Shown here one piece after another: positions 4,779-34,658 of a stretch of 61,089 nucleotides of DNA. Source of the stretch: Duncaniella sp. (GTDB lineage: Bacteria; Bacteroidota; Bacteroidia; Bacteroidales; Muribaculaceae); NCBI GenBank assembly GCA_029060405.1, contig JAIDUB010000013.1, positions 1 through 61,089 of the forward strand, in the 5' to 3' direction. The translations under genes and the position numbers were made by a program. Under the pieces are notes generated by a model. That model saw only the letters and a program-made list of their open reading frames with translations, did not search any database and was not told where the DNA came from. How positions within the stretch are numbered: the first letter of the stretch is position 1; every line of letters starts with the position of its first letter.

Positions 4779-6121
4779 TTCAATCCTGTATAGTTACCGG
4801 GTGTGATGGCGTGGAGCTGGGTCTTGACCTCATCACTCACTTCGAGCGTATCGATAAATGTGGCTATGCTCTCAGCCGTAATAGCGGTGTTGACGCGGGT
4901 GAGAGCCTTGAGAGTCTCGTAAGGCTTGGGATAACCCTCGCGGCGGAGGATGGTCTGTATAGCCTCGGCCACTACGCTCCAAGTATTGTCAAGGTCACGG
5001 TCGATGGCATCGCGGTTGAGAAGCAGTTTGCCGAGTCCTTTGAGGGTAGAGGCAAAGGCTATGAGCGAGTGAGCCATCGGGACGCCGATGTTGCGCAATA
5101 CGGTAGAGTCGGTAAGGTCACGCTGCAGACGCGATACGGGAAGTTTCTGCGCCAGATGGGAATAGATGGCGTTGGCCATACCTATATTGCCCTCGGAGTT
5201 CTCGAAGTCGATAGGATTGACCTTGTGGGGCATTGCCGACGAGCCGACCTCACCCTCTTTGATGCGCTGCTTGAAATATTCCATCGAGATGTAGAGCCAC
5301 ATATCGCGGTCGAGGTCGAGGATTATGGTGTTGATGCGACGCAGGGCATCGAACAGCGCGGCGAGATTGTCATAATTGGAAATCTGAGTGGTGTAGTCCT
5401 CGCGCACAATGCCGAGCTTTTCGCTGAGGAAGCGTGCGGCAAACGAGCGCCAGTCGATATGGGGGAAAGCTACGAGGTGGGCGTTGAAATTACCCGTCGC
5501 ACCACCGAATTTACCGCTTATCACCACCTCGTCGAGAGTCTTGAGCTGGGCGCGGAGACGATATACATACACGCGTATTTCCTTGCCGAGGATGGTGGGG
5601 GATGCGGGCTGTCCGTGAGTCTTGGCCAGCATGGGGATTGAATCCCACTCGTCGGCACGAGCCTCGAGATGACCTATCAGCTCGTCGAGCATGGGACGGT
5701 ATACCTCGCGCAGAGCGTCGGCCACCGACATTGGTACCGAAGTATTGTTGATATCCTGAGAAGTCAGGCCGAAATGGATATATTCCTTATATTCGCTCAG
5801 ACCCATGGCATCGAAATGCTCCTTTAGGAAATATTCCACAGCCTTGACGTCGTGGTTGGTCACGCTCTCGATCTCCTTGATGCGGCGGGCATCGTCGAGG
5901 GAAAAATTGCGGTATATGTCGCGCAGTTTTTCGGCGCAGCCGGCGGGAACAGACTCAAGTGCCGGCAGAGGAATTTCGGTAAGAGCTATGAAATATTCCA
6001 CTTCCACTTTCACTCGGTAGCGTATGAGGGCGTATTCCGAGAAAAATTCGTCAAGACGCTCGCATTTCGAGCGGTAGCGCCCGTCGACGGGCGAGATAGC
6101 GGTAAGGCTTGTGAGCTGCAT
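4775..6121 (-). CDS. purB: Adenylosuccinate lyase
   Basis: PurB carries out two fumarate-releasing steps of purine synthesis: SAICAR to AICAR, and adenylosuccinate to AMP. The 448-aa protein belongs to the fumarase/aspartase superfamily. It has the N-terminal LTAISPVDGRYR, the catalytic His region KTHGQPASPT and the signature loop GSSAMPHKVNPIDFENSEG. The length is normal for the E. coli-like branch. It is the first gene of a leftward cluster and has a well-formed Bacteroidota promoter 35 bases upstream (6156-6187). Confidence 0.97.
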   Translation of the reverse strand: MQLTSLTAISPVDGRYRSKCERLDEFFSEYALIRYRVKVEVEYFIALTEIPLPALESVPAGCAEKLRDIYRNFSLDDARRIKEIESVTNHDVKAVEYFLKEHFDAMGLSEYKEYIHFGLTSQDINNTSVPMSVADALREVYRPMLDELIGHLEARADEWDSIPMLAKTHGQPASPTILGKEIRVYVYRLRAQLKTLDEVVISGKFGGATGNFNAHLVAFPHIDWRSFAARFLSEKLGIVREDYTTQISNYDNLAALFDALRRINTIILDLDRDMWLYISMEYFKQRIKEGEVGSSAMPHKVNPIDFENSEGNIGMANAIYSHLAQKLPVSRLQRDLTDSTVLRNIGVPMAHSLIAFASTLKGLGKLLLNRDAIDRDLDNTWSVVAEAIQTILRREGYPKPYETLKALTRVNTAITAESIATFIDTLEVSDEVKTQLHAITPGNYTGLK

Positions 6122-30129: not shown

Positions 30130-30348
30130 AACAACCAGCAATGTTCACCCCGGAGGGGTTGACATCTGATCAACTGCGGGTGCTTGTCACCCGTGGATAC
30201 CGTGTGCCACCACATATCAGCCCCGGTGGGGTTGGACAATACGGCGCTATTGTTCAACCTCTCCGAGGTATATTGCAAGCACTTGACAACCAACTTTGTA
30301 GGGGCGCTCCATGGAGCGCCCGGCGGCGGATGGTGCACGATGATGGTA
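30130..30348. repeat. Palindromic modules left of the direct repeat
   Basis: Between sdhB and the 345-bp repeat lie CACCCC-gg-AGGGGTTG (about 30147-30163), CGGGTG-cttgt-CACCCG (about 30177-30193), CCCCGGTGGGG (about 30222-30232) and the perfect 20-bp palindrome GGGCGCTCCATGGAGCGCCC at 30302-30321, identical to 1548-1567. No gene is supportable in 30048-30825. Confidence 0.65.
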
Positions 30349-30693
30349 AGGTGATGGTGTGCGACAACGGCGTGGAATGGAGTGCCGAAGGCACGAGGTT
30401 GTCGATAACCACGGGTGCTAGCCCGTGGAGAACAGCATGAAACTCTCTCTTGAGCTGCGGAGCTGCGATGTAGTAAGAACGGCTCAAACGACATCGCAGC
30501 TCCGCAGCTCATATTGTCAGGGGCACTTGTCCGCGGGCTTCACCCGCGGTTATGTACAACGACGGGCTTCCAGCCCTGATTTTCATTAACGCGGCGGCAG
30601 GGTGGTGCGCGACGATGGCGGATGATGGTGCGAGTAAACGGTGGTGGTATGAATTCGCCTTTTTGCTCTGCCGGACGCTCCCGAGTGTGCGTC
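30349..30693 (+). repeat. 345-bp composite direct repeat, copy A
   Basis: This copy aligns without gaps to 34314-34658 at a constant offset of 3965 bases. Over 30361-30660 I counted four mismatches in 300 bases. It is built of hairpins: CCACGGG...CCCGTGG (30409-30428), perfect 21-bp arms at 30451-30471 and 30491-30511 with a 19-base loop, CCGCGGG-cttca-CCCGCGG (30531-30549), GGGCT-tcc-AGCCC near 30563-30575, and GGACGCTC/GTGCGTC at the right end. It carries no gene. A more divergent, partial relative of the hairpin unit continues at about 30712-30790. Confidence 0.85.
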
Positions 30694-30825
30694 AGGCAGA
30701 AATACCAATACAAAAGCGTAGCCGCGAGGCGGTAATGTTATGGAAGCACTGATCTCTCCACGACATTTCCACTTCGCGGCCGTTTGAATCGATGATAAGC
30801 CCCTTTGCTAAGGGCTAAAGAGTAA

Positions 30826-31263
30826 CTATTTTTTTGCTTTTACATCCGTTACGATCAATTCCGTTCGGTTACGGTCAAGAAGGTCGCCAATTTTTATGTC
30901 GAAAGTATCATCTTTGGATAGCGTTATGTCAGGAAACCAAATACTCATACTTGATTTTTCTTTATCGCTGATGCTCTTTGTATCCGATACCGCCTTACGA
31001 TCATTATCCCATTCAAATACTTTTCCTTTTATTTTGATTGACTCGTTCGGGATCGATAGATAGATATCAGAGAAAGAAATATTATAGCTGAAATTTTTCT
31101 TTTGTATAAGGGATACATAAACTATTGAGCCGGATTGAGTTGGCTCAACGTTCTCAATATTTAATTTAATCGATTTTATTTCCTCTTTTCGATTAACTTT
31201 TAGATTCTTCGCCTGCATTGCATAGGAACAAAAGATCAAAAGTAATGATATAATAATTCTCAT
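30826..31263 (-). CDS. Small exported hypothetical protein of the caspase operon
   Basis: A 145-aa protein of unknown family. The first ~18 residues (MRIIISLLLIFCSYAMQA) form a signal peptide; the mature chain is Lys/Ile/Ser-rich and predicted beta (SIKLNIENVEPTQSGSIVYV, SFSDIYLSIP, MSIWFPDITLSKDDTFDI), like a small immunoglobulin-like or beta-sandwich fold. It is the third gene of a leftward three-gene operon behind the caspase-like peptidase (gap 36 bases). The A+T-rich composition contrasts with sdhB on the left. A partner or substrate role in the caspase locus is inference. Confidence 0.7.
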   Translation of the reverse strand: MRIIISLLLIFCSYAMQAKNLKVNRKEEIKSIKLNIENVEPTQSGSIVYVSLIQKKNFSYNISFSDIYLSIPNESIKIKGKVFEWDNDRKAVSDTKSISDKEKSSMSIWFPDITLSKDDTFDIKIGDLLDRNRTELIVTDVKAKK

Positions 31264-31299
31264 TGCTGTATTTTTTTTGTGTTAATTGTATTTTTTGTG

Positions 31300-32649
31300 T
31301 TAATAAAGTTTCCAATTATGCCATTCGTTGACAATATTTGGAGTGGCAGATACAGTGGGGGTTTGGGACTTGCCGTTTATTACTAAAGATTTTCTTTTCA
31401 CATTATCTTTGAGTGATTCAAACAGTTCTCCTAATGTAATTTGACCGCAGCTGTCTTTCAGTTGTTTAAGGAGATAATAAGTAAACAGGCCGTGAGATTT
31501 CTCTATATAAGGGTAGGCTGTTTCGTCTCCTTGAGATGAGGATATTACGACAGTGTTGCCTTTTGGGGTCGCCGTTTTTGCCTTAATCCTAATACCACGC
31601 GCGGCATACAACATTTCATTACCGCGAGCGGAGCCACTGAAACATGCATCGATCAATATGATGTTGCGTTGAGACGGTATTGTTCCAAAGATTTCGTAAA
31701 AATCAGAGATAGCATAGCAAGTCGATAAATCGGAAGTGTATCCGTCAACCGGCATCAAGTATGCGTTACCTGTCTTTTCATCTGGAAAACCATGTCCGGA
31801 ATAATATATTAGAAAAGAAGCTTGACCGTCATATGCTTCAGCAATCTGACGTATCAGATTGATCTCCCGCTTGATGTTATTAAGTGTGGCATCTTTAACC
31901 AGATGAATATTACTCTCCGGTATGCCAAGAGTCTTACGGCAGTATTGCGCAAATATTTCACCGTCGTTTAAAGCATTGGCAACCTTTGCCACATCCTGAT
32001 AATTCTCATTAGAGATAATTAGAGCAAACGTATTGTCTGACTTTATAGATGAGAAGGGAATATCAATATCAACATCCGAAACACTGTTTAAATCATATTT
32101 AGGATTATGATATTCAGTAAGACTCATAGTTTCATTTGAATTAACTGATTTCGGCTCTGAGTCCATTACTTTAGTTTCTATCCTAATATCATCGGCGATT
32201 AAATTGTTTTCACCCGTTGTTTTGGTGTTATTATCGCGGCTTTTACAAAACTCTGCTATGTGGGGCAGATCGTTGTGGAAATTCTTATTATCATATCGTT
32301 TTTGCCATTCATCTGCCCGCTTTATATCAGAAGTCACACCAATTCCCATGCGATAGCAACGTGCAAGTTCAAGCATTGCCGGAGGGAAACCGCGTTCTGC
32401 GGCGCGCCGATATGTAGAGAAGGCCAAAGTAATATCCTTGTTTACCCCAATACCATACTCATAGCATTGCGCAATATAATATTGAGCTAATACATCATTC
32501 GTGCCGGCGGCGCGTTTAAGAATTCCAATGGCATTTTCAATCTCACCATGTTGCAGCGATTGAAAAGCACTCTCCACTCGATTGCTCAAAGTGTAACTGT
32601 TAGAAAATAAAGCGATACTAAAAGATATCAAGCAAAAGAAAAAGCGCAT
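31300..32649 (-). CDS. Exported caspase-family (C14) peptidase with Sel1 repeats
   Basis: A 449-aa protein with three parts. Residues 1-19 are a signal peptide. Residues ~25-120 are tetratricopeptide/Sel1-like repeats (AQYYIAQCYEYGIGVNKD, then AMLELARCYRMGIGVTSD). After a Ser/Asn/Thr-rich linker, residues ~205-440 form a caspase-like domain: FALIISNENYQDVAKVANAL, the catalytic His in FLIYYSGHGFPDEK (H286) and the catalytic Cys in NIILIDACFSGSA (C336), then VISSSQGDETAYPY. Both catalytic residues are present, so activity is plausible. Sel1 repeats usually bind other proteins. The signal peptide places it outside the cytoplasm, unlike most defence-associated bacterial caspases. Confidence 0.9.
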   Translation of the reverse strand: MRFFFCLISFSIALFSNSYTLSNRVESAFQSLQHGEIENAIGILKRAAGTNDVLAQYYIAQCYEYGIGVNKDITLAFSTYRRAAERGFPPAMLELARCYRMGIGVTSDIKRADEWQKRYDNKNFHNDLPHIAEFCKSRDNNTKTTGENNLIADDIRIETKVMDSEPKSVNSNETMSLTEYHNPKYDLNSVSDVDIDIPFSSIKSDNTFALIISNENYQDVAKVANALNDGEIFAQYCRKTLGIPESNIHLVKDATLNNIKREINLIRQIAEAYDGQASFLIYYSGHGFPDEKTGNAYLMPVDGYTSDLSTCYAISDFYEIFGTIPSQRNIILIDACFSGSARGNEMLYAARGIRIKAKTATPKGNTVVISSSQGDETAYPYIEKSHGLFTYYLLKQLKDSCGQITLGELFESLKDNVKRKSLVINGKSQTPTVSATPNIVNEWHNWKLY

Positions 32650-32711
32650 ATAATATTAATTCATGATAGGTTGCTATTTCGGATAAGCAACCTATCATAT
32701 CAATTTTGAAA

Positions 32712-33770
32712 TTAACGGTTGTTGTTAAACTGTGAAAAATCCTTGTTATTGAAGTATTTCATTTTGCCCCAGTTGGATTCTTCACCCTCGAAAATAATTT
32801 CACTTTTATAATAGGTTTCATCTCGATTCGCAAAGAGAGCGGCAGCAGCTCCTCCTGTTCCCAGTATAGCTAACCCAGCGAGTAGCCCTTGTCCAAATGA
32901 CATCCCCTTTTTCTTCGAAATCCATACAGGGTTAAGCGAAAATGTTCCCTTTTTGAAATTTCCGGTCCAATCGCAAACAATTACCGGAGATTTATCTTGC
33001 TCAAATTCAAATGGGGTATCAGCTTTAACATGAACTTTTGCTGCTTCTGTTTTCTTAACGCCAAAACCACTTTTCTCTTTATTGGAAAGTTCAAGAGGCA
33101 TTTCAACGTAAAATGGAGCTAAATACAAATCACTTACCCACGTAGATATTGCAATAGGTGTCCAGTTCTCCGAACGTTTGTTAAATGAATAGGCTAATGA
33201 AGCTCCAATATTATTTACACTTTCATCTTCTGTAAGGTGACGTGAAGCCGTTCCGAGATAATTTTCCCCCATAGGATCAGCTTCCAGTGATTCATTAACT
33301 AACTCATTAAGAATAGTTAATAATCTCTCTTCATATTCCGAAAAATCGCCTGAAGGAGATTCTGTAGTGGTATATTTTCCATACATACCTCCAGCTAAAT
33401 TGCATATAAAAGTTTCGTTTTGCTTATTGCCAACTGAAGGAGCGATAGAGAAAAAGGAGTCTTCAATAGATACATTACCTTTCGATGCTTTTTTATCATC
33501 TTGATGTTTTGAATACATTGGGTAAGACGATCCGTTGTGTATTAAGAAACACTGTGAAAGGTCTAAAAATATAGTTTTATCTGTTTTATTAATTGCATAT
33601 AGTTTTTCATTGTAGATTTCAAGTTTGATATTTTCATCCTCAAAAACACTATTCGCAGGAGAGTAAGCCATTACGAGTGCTGTACGATAGTTTGTTGATA
33701 ACTCCTTGGCAAATGTTGTTAATCCTGATAGCAGGCACATCATTGCGAAAACAAATAAAAATTTTTTCAT
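32712..33770 (-). CDS. Exported hypothetical protein, first gene of caspase operon
   Basis: A 352-aa protein of no family I recognise. I start it at 33770 (MKKFLFVFAMMCLLSGLTTFA), a clear signal peptide; the eight residues upstream are not signal-like. The mature part looks like mixed alpha/beta with a charged middle (EYEERLLTILNELVNESLEADPMGENYLGTASRHL). Near the C-terminus, after ISKKKG, a Gly/Ala-rich hydrophobic stretch (GQGLLAGLAILGTGGAAAAL) could insert in a membrane. It precedes the caspase-like gene by 62 bases and follows a ~400-base untranslated leader with its own promoter. Confidence 0.75.
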   Translation of the reverse strand: MKKFLFVFAMMCLLSGLTTFAKELSTNYRTALVMAYSPANSVFEDENIKLEIYNEKLYAINKTDKTIFLDLSQCFLIHNGSSYPMYSKHQDDKKASKGNVSIEDSFFSIAPSVGNKQNETFICNLAGGMYGKYTTTESPSGDFSEYEERLLTILNELVNESLEADPMGENYLGTASRHLTEDESVNNIGASLAYSFNKRSENWTPIAISTWVSDLYLAPFYVEMPLELSNKEKSGFGVKKTEAAKVHVKADTPFEFEQDKSPVIVCDWTGNFKKGTFSLNPVWISKKKGMSFGQGLLAGLAILGTGGAAAALFANRDETYYKSEIIFEGEESNWGKMKYFNNKDFSQFNNNR

Positions 33771-34171
33771 AATGAAATAAGTTGCCGCGGTCATCCTCTC
33801 GTTGGCGTAAATTGTTGATTAATAAAGGAAAAGCGTAGGAATCTGTATCATTTGCCGTCCTACTTTCCGAGGCTTCTCGCATTGCCCATCAATAGTCGGA
33901 CGGCAACGCAGAAGCCCACGCCAGTATATGCAACCATCGCTTCCGAAACAATTCCTCACGGAATAACGAGCCGAAAGCAGGATATTACATAACCACGGGC
34001 ATCTACCGTTGCTCAATCCTTGACTATTGATTGAAATTTTGCGAGAATTTCGGAAAGTCAAGAATCAGCGCGGATAAACGCTTTTAAATCAGTATTTTCA
34101 CTGCATCCCACCTCTCTTGCCCCTCCCAAGCGGATCGTGATCCTACTGGCGTGAACACGGGAGACGGTCTG
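33771..34171 (-). ncRNA. Candidate structured leader RNA or independent ncRNA
   Basis: A strong promoter at 34178-34208 should start a minus-strand transcript near 34171, some 400 bases before the first gene. No convincing coding frame fills this. The RNA strand shows CTCCC...GGGAG enclosing GGATCACGATCC near its 5' end (about 34160-34122), CTTGACT...AGTCAAG (about 34062-34015), and a late hairpin GGCTTCT...AGAAGCC flanked by CCGTCC...GGACGG (about 33926-33855). The unusual length and paired segments suggest a regulatory leader or a separate small RNA. I could not assign a known RNA family. Confidence 0.45.
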
Positions 34172-34177
34172 CATCGG

Positions 34178-34208
34178 CAAAGATACAACAATTATGTTGT
34201 TTTGCAAA
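34178..34208 (-). promoter_or_regulatory. Promoter of the caspase operon or its leader RNA
   Basis: On the minus strand TTTG (34208-34205), a 19-base spacer and TATCTTTG (34185-34178) match the Bacteroidota consensus exactly. An ACAACA...TGTTGT arrangement (34186-34201) lies in the spacer and could be an operator. Confidence 0.75.
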
Positions 34209-34313
34209 AATATTTTTGGGTTGTGATGTCAACCACTTTGATGCAGTTCAATGCCGCAGCGATGCTCGCACGCGCTCCCGCGCGTGCGTTTTGGGGTGGG
34301 GGGATGATTCGTG

Positions 34314-34658
34314 AGGTGAAGGTGCGCGACAACGGCGTGGAATGGAGTGCCGAAGGCACGAGGTTGTTGATAACCACGGGTGCAAGCCCGTGGAGAACAG
34401 CATGAAACTCTCTCGTGAGCTGCGGAGCTGCGATGTAGTAAGAACGGCTCAAACGACATCGCAGCTCCGCAGCTCATATTGTCAGGGGCACTTGTCCGCG
34501 GGCTTCACCCGCGGTTATGTACAACGACGGGCTTCCAGCCCTGATTTTCATTAACGCGGCGGCAGGGTGGTGCGCGACGATGGCGGATGATGGTGCGAGT
34601 AAACGGCGGTGGTATGAATTCGCCTTTTTTCTCTGCCGGACGCACCCGAGTGTGCGTC
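34314..34658 (+). repeat. 345-bp composite direct repeat, copy B
   Basis: This is the partner of copy A (30349-30693), in the same orientation. It has the same series of hairpins, including the perfect 21-bp arms at 34416-34436 and 34456-34476. To its left, GCACGCGC...GCGCGTGC (about 34268-34287) repeats a unit of the 12.5-kb cluster. Its right end, GGACGCAC-ccgagt-GTGCGTCC, is a full palindrome where copy A has diverged. The rest of the gap 33771-34763 not covered by the leader RNA holds no gene. Confidence 0.85.

Follow-up and report, generated by a model that had tools for sequence, protein, structure and literature searches.

Candidate structured RNAs have been described before from the order or phylum to which Duncaniella belongs, among them the Bacteroidales-1, Bacteroides-1 and Bacteroid-trp motifs (Weinberg 2010, PMC2864571), and palindromic Bacteroidetes RNA candidates of 80-132 bp are known from human microbiomes (accessible part of PMC8040213). 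As to bacterial caspases, a survey of cyanobacterial orthocaspases lists, in a table of its accessible part, Sel1 in two and DUF4384 in 23 proteins (PMC8283722). The DNA analysed here, a stretch of 61,089 nucleotides from Duncaniella sp. (contig JAIDUB010000013.1; the whole stretch is called the window), has between sdhB and a LuxR-type gene a three-gene operon for an exported-looking caspase, and in front of it a 256-nt rod-shaped RNA that is one copy of a recurrent family. Comparison of the copies shows that this RNA has a conserved structure, is formed on the transcribed strand, lies between a promoter box and a start codon and precedes many unrelated, often exported genes. That it is a conserved RNA family is practically certain, and that it would be a cis-acting leader is highly probable. 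The reading that we favour as a whole, a single transcription unit whose leader carries a modular RNA of this family, acting in cis and probably a switch, has in our judgement a probability of about 0.7.

Alignment of the copies revealed that the variable segments are paired by matching complements elsewhere in the molecule. The structure, which consists of P1-B-M-C-E2-G plus helix D and has 68 pairs, was evaluated over 45 full cores: 91.2% of the cells are paired, compared to 80.0 ± 0.4 in shuffles, and a double change was seen in 357 cells, compared to 118.8 ± 10.7 in shuffles and 61-126 in slid controls. For individual pairs of helix B, both sides are changed in up to 28 sequences. Since G-U pairs outnumber A-C mismatches (207 versus 59 cells), the structure is apparently made in RNA of this strand. 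The window copy folds with -100.5 kcal/mol (z = -5.82), and none of 200 shuffles was as low. A search of Rfam 15 with the window stretch and 20 loci gave no covariance-model match to the rod at E ≤ 1; the other hits were at chance level, except for RNase P and the tRNA genes of neighbours. Likewise, a literature search that included the accessible parts of PMC2864571, PMC7366714 and PMC8040213 retrieved no description of the RNA, one in print elsewhere being possible, and PMC11109978 has none of the four taxon names looked for.

Eight copies of the RNA in the window's genome (window 33829-34084; L120, L119, L123, L121, L122, L124 and L125) differ in the segments that form helices B and C, like private pairing codes, and these differences might prevent pairing in trans.

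Helix D is possible in 44 of the 45 copies, including the compensated versions GCCGTCC/GGACGGC and GCTCGTTC/GAACGAGC, and its 3' strand can pair with TTGC, which is otherwise paired with GCAA in helix E1. It is here that a switch could be sought. The RNA would act in cis on its own mRNA, the competition of helices D and E1 at TTGC would make two states possible, of which one would allow transcription or translation while the other would be a hindrance to it. A shared signal, either a small molecule or an RNA-binding protein, would then coordinate an accessory set of exported proteins. Transcription, cis action, switching and signal are what we infer, and we give a switch of exactly this design somewhat less than even odds. 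A simpler function is conceivable, in which the rod senses nothing and is a constitutive stabiliser or processing site that shields the 5' ends of mRNAs for exported proteins from decay. A highly stable rod close to the 5' end would suit this role, as would downstream genes without a common pathway, but the 40 columns invariant over 45 copies seem more than a clamp needs, and helix D, an alternative or pseudoknot pairing, is conserved as well. We regard a mere stabiliser as unlikely.

The position of the RNA is that of a leader (Table 1). In 141 of 156 copies the Bacteroidota -7 consensus TAnnTTTG is present upstream of the rod at a distance of 60-220 nt, compared to 11 of 156 in one mononucleotide shuffle, and 115 of 175 copies have a motif like the purine-rich box between rod and start codon. 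We also considered a regular 3' hairpin with GGGGA as its loop but dropped it, as it was insufficiently consistent among the copies. A leader of ~400 nt is exceptional, because the median 5' untranslated region (UTR) of Bacteroides thetaiotaomicron is 32 nt long (accessible part of PMC7366714). As in riboswitches, a conserved structured RNA is found in the 5' UTR, the transcription of which is itself predicted. An earlier note on this DNA, made from the sequence without database searches, had rightly stated that besides the genes only "a leader" lies between two flanking 345-bp repeats; it did not see this leader as a recurring RNA and thus overlooked the main feature of the locus, the 256-nt structured RNA (33829-34084, minus strand).

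Table 1 Features of the leader, the caspase operon and the flanking repeats (positions in the window).
Feature	Position	Strand	Description or basis
345-bp dispersed palindromic repeat, right copy	34311..34655	+	sequence comparison
Bacteroidota -7 promoter box TATCTTTG (TAnnTTTG)	34178..34185	-	located by motif position
Predicted ~400-nt transcribed 5' leader, starts GCAGACCG	33771..34172	-	putative transcription start; alignment of copies
Leader 5' domain, length varies between copies	34085..34172	-	copy alignment and fold
256-nt rod-shaped RNA, copy of recurrent family (model R1)	33829..34084	-	covariation, fold energy, family search
Conserved purine-rich box (GAGAGGA), rod to start codon	33784..33808	-	possible hairpin
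Gene 1	32712..33770	-	352 amino acids (aa), exported-looking, no Pfam or NCBIfam match; alternative start 33794 possible
Gene 2	31300..32649	-	449 aa, Sel1 repeats and caspase (Peptidase_C14), His286/Cys336 intact
Gene 3	30826..31263	-	145 aa, exported-looking, beta-sandwich predicted
345-bp dispersed palindromic repeat, left copy	30346..30690	+	sequence comparison

The RNA is widespread in the family and sporadic in the order. Leader matches were found in 25 of the 27 genomes of the genus (E 0.001), some over short parts only. With model R1 the RNA was detected in 179 of 198 genomes of the family Muribaculaceae, often in several copies (scoring was limited to 10 candidates per genome), and in 44 of 247 genomes of the order, 40 of which do not belong to the family. 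Among 395 genomes of the phylum it was detected in three, the window's own included. Some distant matches are only ~160 nt long and do not have the central domain. Rod relatives of ~165 nt without this domain (L039 18432-18596; L228 1501-1666) occur several times per genome in some distant Bacteroidales, for example in G678. The exact DNA pattern is present in at least 117 stretches of named genomes, and the 80 listed titles are all Bacteroidales except for one contig labelled as a Clostridia metagenome-assembled genome (L282 3923-3962), which is probably misbinned. The RNA is also present in the cultured Duncaniella muris DSM 103720. In viral contigs there was no exact match of the pattern, and a phage origin of the RNA was set aside on this ground.

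The genes behind the RNA were inspected for 124 distinct copies, of which 112 have at least 600 nt of downstream sequence. An open reading frame (ORF) of at least 60 aa begins within 450 nt in 110 of the 112, with a median gap of 60 nt. By a crude hydrophobicity rule, 81 of these 110 first genes have a signal-like N terminus, compared to 57 of 150 control ORFs (p = 1e-8); since this control contained the same genes many times, the comparison was redone on collapsed homologs, where signal-like starts were seen in 34 of 53 first genes and 26 of 69 controls (p = 0.006), and in 19 of 57 ORFs of the window. Pfam detected LRR_5 in 32 of the 110, Big_2 in 13 and Peptidase_C10 in four. In 110 control proteins LRR_5 did not rank with the 25 commonest families and hence is present in at most three of these proteins. 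The genes led by the RNA thus often code for exported proteins: BspA leucine-rich-repeat (LRR) proteins, C10 proteases and caspase operons. With the caspases as starting point, 16 of 40 caspase loci, some of them with less than 6 kb of upstream sequence, had the RNA upstream in the same orientation, compared to one of 20 control regions, the swapped site of genome G205 described below (p = 0.005). All four caspase operons of the window type carry the RNA. The window's genome has a second caspase operon (contig C35; L125 402-3159), in which the RNA is followed by a 192-aa protein and then by a BspA-LRR plus caspase protein.

That the leader precedes multi-gene operons and, in the window, A+T-rich accessory genes would also fit a leader that recruits a processive antitermination factor and thereby allows read-through of long or A+T-rich acquired operons, as EAR and LoaP/UpxY-type systems do. 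Some of the first genes are short, however, and we consider antitermination distinctly unlikely.

The leader seems to be independent of the genes behind it. Among 157 copies, 96 pairs of rods are at least 90% identical, and only 9 of the 96 have downstream DNA of at least 150 nt in common. In 14 pairs examined, the similarity stops 12-46 nt beyond the rod; 13 of the 14 were chosen for absent downstream similarity, so that only the stopping place is informative. Two explanations are open for these sequences, exchange of the leader between genes or very tight selection on it. Near-identical copies before unrelated genes, also across genera, and the location of several copies close to contig ends could be taken to mean that the RNA is transcribed from a small mobile element with its own promoter that lands before genes, any effect on expression being a by-product. 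An element landing at random would, however, be expected neither to lie as a rule ~60 nt ahead of a start codon in the same orientation nor to show covariation at the RNA level, and the failure to match the exact pattern in viral contigs also speaks against it; such an element is hardly probable.

For a leader that is exchanged between genes, the sdhB-luxR site is instructive. In 20 sdhB regions fetched from the same genus, the LuxR-type gene was seen only in G170 and G205. G170 has 629 nt from sdhB to the LuxR-type gene and the operon is absent. In G205 the distance is 2,891 nt, and behind a 535-bp leader, 97% identical to that of the window, there are two different leftward genes, of which one is weakly CsgG-like; the leader match (33783-34317) stops just short of the coding sequences. 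The suggestion of the earlier note that the site is exchangeable is borne out by this comparison of genomes, which for the leader pair of the window and G205 favours exchange over tight selection. The genes behind the leader would be replaced by recombination, as the site suggests. Behind the insert of G205 the end of the LuxR-type gene is duplicated (418 bp at 86%; 177 bp with 94% identity to the gene of the window), with coordinates L070 5095-5271 and 7637 onward, the longer repeat being L257 4898-5285 and 7411-7827. This duplication could be the product of a single-crossover integration.

Taken as a whole, the large rod-shaped RNAs may be a class not described before and, together with the promoter, a portable control module of Muribaculaceae. 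Such a module would move between unrelated genes, also across genera, and would subject caspase operons, proteases and exported adhesin-like proteins, in changing composition, to a single common signal; the gene swap at sdhB-luxR behind a 97%-identical leader would be one recent exchange. We hold this wider proposal with somewhat less than even confidence.

The exchange had been explained differently in the earlier note, namely by a caspase cassette that is mobilised via the two flanking 345-bp repeats. These direct repeats do exist on both sides and are similar far beyond chance; with 8 mismatches in 345 bp (97.7% identity) their divergence is slightly above the 1-2% given there. The repeat folds into a long hairpin. 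It had 72 BLAST matches in the window's genome, several of which are both strands of one palindromic place, and the long copies that come next, of about 205-245 nt, have an identity of 82-87%. No match to it was detected in the stretches fetched around three orthologous operons (L039, L040 and L041, the last of which, from G036, ends ~320 nt past the RNA at a contig end), so that operons without the repeats were seen across species. Because the repeat is dispersed and was not found near the three orthologous operons, it does not define a cassette. Nor is bracketing general: direct repeats of at least 80 bp bracket 3 of 78 RNA copies versus 0 of 44 control loci (p = 0.55, not significant), and neither the orthologous operon of G177 nor that of G009 is bracketed by direct repeats. 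Moreover, the three operon genes match no transposase or integrase family, shorter ORFs inside not having been tested. There are observations that would suit mobilisation via repeats: in G036 the operon lies between two direct copies of another palindromic sequence, which match over 35 bp at 94% (L041 7755-7789 and 14565-14599, the right copy at the contig end), and this mildly favours the earlier note; a ~100-nt, 75% relative of the 345-bp repeat remains between sdhB and luxR in G170, as expected after loss through repeats; and the insert of G205 sits between duplicated LuxR-gene ends. With G036 excepted, we rejected repeats as general cassette ends and consider the repeat-mobilised cassette very unlikely. 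An RNA-led locus of G153 (L128) has direct repeats of ~460 bp, 97% identical, at 530-996 and 5490-5949.

The whole locus would be a single transcription unit made up of the promoter, the ~400-nt leader and the operon, the products of which would be an exported Sel1-caspase and its two exported-looking partner proteins. The description of the operon in the earlier note, three leftward genes with signal peptides, the middle one with Sel1 repeats and a caspase domain with His286 and Cys336, agrees with ORFs, Pfam and the alignment of orthologs; the N termini of all three resemble Sec signal peptides, as judged by eye. It is also correct that the operon is A+T-richer than its neighbours, with a G+C content of 36.9% compared to 58-59% in sdhA/sdhB. 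For gene 2, Pfam gave Peptidase_C14 (E 5.9e-23) and Sel1 (E 4e-12), with 82.2 bits to PF00656 at a curated cut-off of 21.4, and PADLOC a match to its caspase model (E 1.8e-10). H286 and C336, which correspond to the catalytic His-Cys dyad of orthocaspases, are invariant in four aligned orthologs. The start of gene 1 at 33770 agrees with four homologs; because these and the usual gap from rod to start codon support it, it was preferred over an MTAA/MTEA extension ahead of the signal peptide, which would run through the conserved purine-rich box and was dropped. Genes 1 and 3 had no match in Pfam or NCBIfam. Of the structure predictions proposed earlier, that for gene 3 gave a good model, and the AlphaFold model of gene 1 was unusable (predicted local distance difference test, pLDDT, 31); since the best Foldseek match of gene 3 had only E 1.4e-3, no function is given to it. 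The caspase likely acts as an exported protease and would process envelope or extracellular proteins. The extracytoplasmic role suggested in the earlier note fits the signal-like N termini and the kinds of genes found behind the leader.

Gene 1, searched first in 198 and then in 397 genomes of the family, is present in four of the 397 (the window's genome, G177, G009 and G036); a weak partial match in G187 was not counted, and a further homolog was found in L259, where the fetched stretch stops before the next gene. In G177, G009 and G036 gene 1 is followed by the caspase and gene 3 in the same order, the co-occurrence that the earlier note had proposed to look for, with an identity of gene 3 of only 26-38%. 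In G177 and G036 two additional exported-looking genes precede gene 1. Pfam relates the second of them weakly to DUF4384 (in 12 of 15 members, with 1.5e-6 as the best E) and gave nothing reliable for the first. Both genes, or the DUF4384-like one alone, adjoin caspases at many other fetched loci, and therefore the operon of the window seems to be a shortened version of a wider family of exported-caspase operons. On contig C62 of the window's genome a DUF4384-like gene lies beside another caspase; the other extra gene was not found there in a search without positive control. Two proteins are found repeatedly in the interval from the RNA to the caspase (L039 7933-9491, L041 12396-13960, L194, L196, L197, L223 and L224), one of 225 aa that is exported-looking and unmatched in Pfam, the other DUF4384-like.

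Several points weigh against the leader RNA as a switch for exported proteins. The structure was drawn from the same sequences on which it was tested, which favours it somewhat, though not on this scale. Helices E1 and E2 are almost invariant, and the alternative states therefore lean partly on sequence without support by covariation. PMC8040213 has 3,161 candidate RNAs, of which the comparison with the rod covers those described in the text. By the crude rule 29 of 110 first genes have no signal-like start, and the excess is modest after collapsing homologs. The 40 caspase loci were drawn from a ranked list, with most loci at contig ends skipped; L220, L223 and L224 were picked with the nearby RNA known and L193 with partial knowledge of it, and without the first three the link is 13 of 37 (p = 0.012). 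In L192 the RNA is 5.8 kb away from the caspase and probably outside its operon. Finally, purifying selection on the RNA alone could keep unrelated copies alike, which weakens the argument for exchange.

Muribaculaceae are dominant bacteria of the mouse gut, and little is known about their gene regulation. A structured RNA that is present in about nine of ten sampled genomes of this family and is linked to exported proteins would give the surface and secreted proteins that face host and competitors a common point of control. Since the RNA is large, covaries and is present in a cultured strain, its mechanism and signal can be tested directly. In addition, exported-looking caspases, usually discussed as intracellular enzymes, are placed in a defined operon family.

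Among known systems, similarity is greatest to riboswitches and the other 5' leader RNAs that regulate in cis: here too a structured, covarying RNA, with helices that could compete, lies between promoter box and start codon. In contrast to them, the RNA described here has no Rfam 15 match in the stretches searched, is an unusually large single rod and is tied to diverse, often exported proteins, not to one pathway. EAR and LoaP-type systems share with it a leader RNA before accessory operons. Bacteroidales-1, Bacteroides-1 and Bacteroid-trp, which have Rfam accessions in the table of the accessible part of PMC2864571, were not matched by cmscan in the window stretch and 20 loci; Bacteroides-2 and GUCCY-hairpin have no accession there and lie outside this comparison. 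The candidates of PMC8040213 are, as described in its accessible part, shorter than the 256-nt rod. The 345-bp repeats are dispersed and palindromic like REP-like repeat families, but longer. With orthocaspases gene 2 shares the caspase domain, the His-Cys dyad and Sel1, and DUF4384-like genes adjoin caspases in Bacteroidales loci too; unlike orthocaspases, it is exported-looking and part of a Bacteroidales operon behind a leader RNA.

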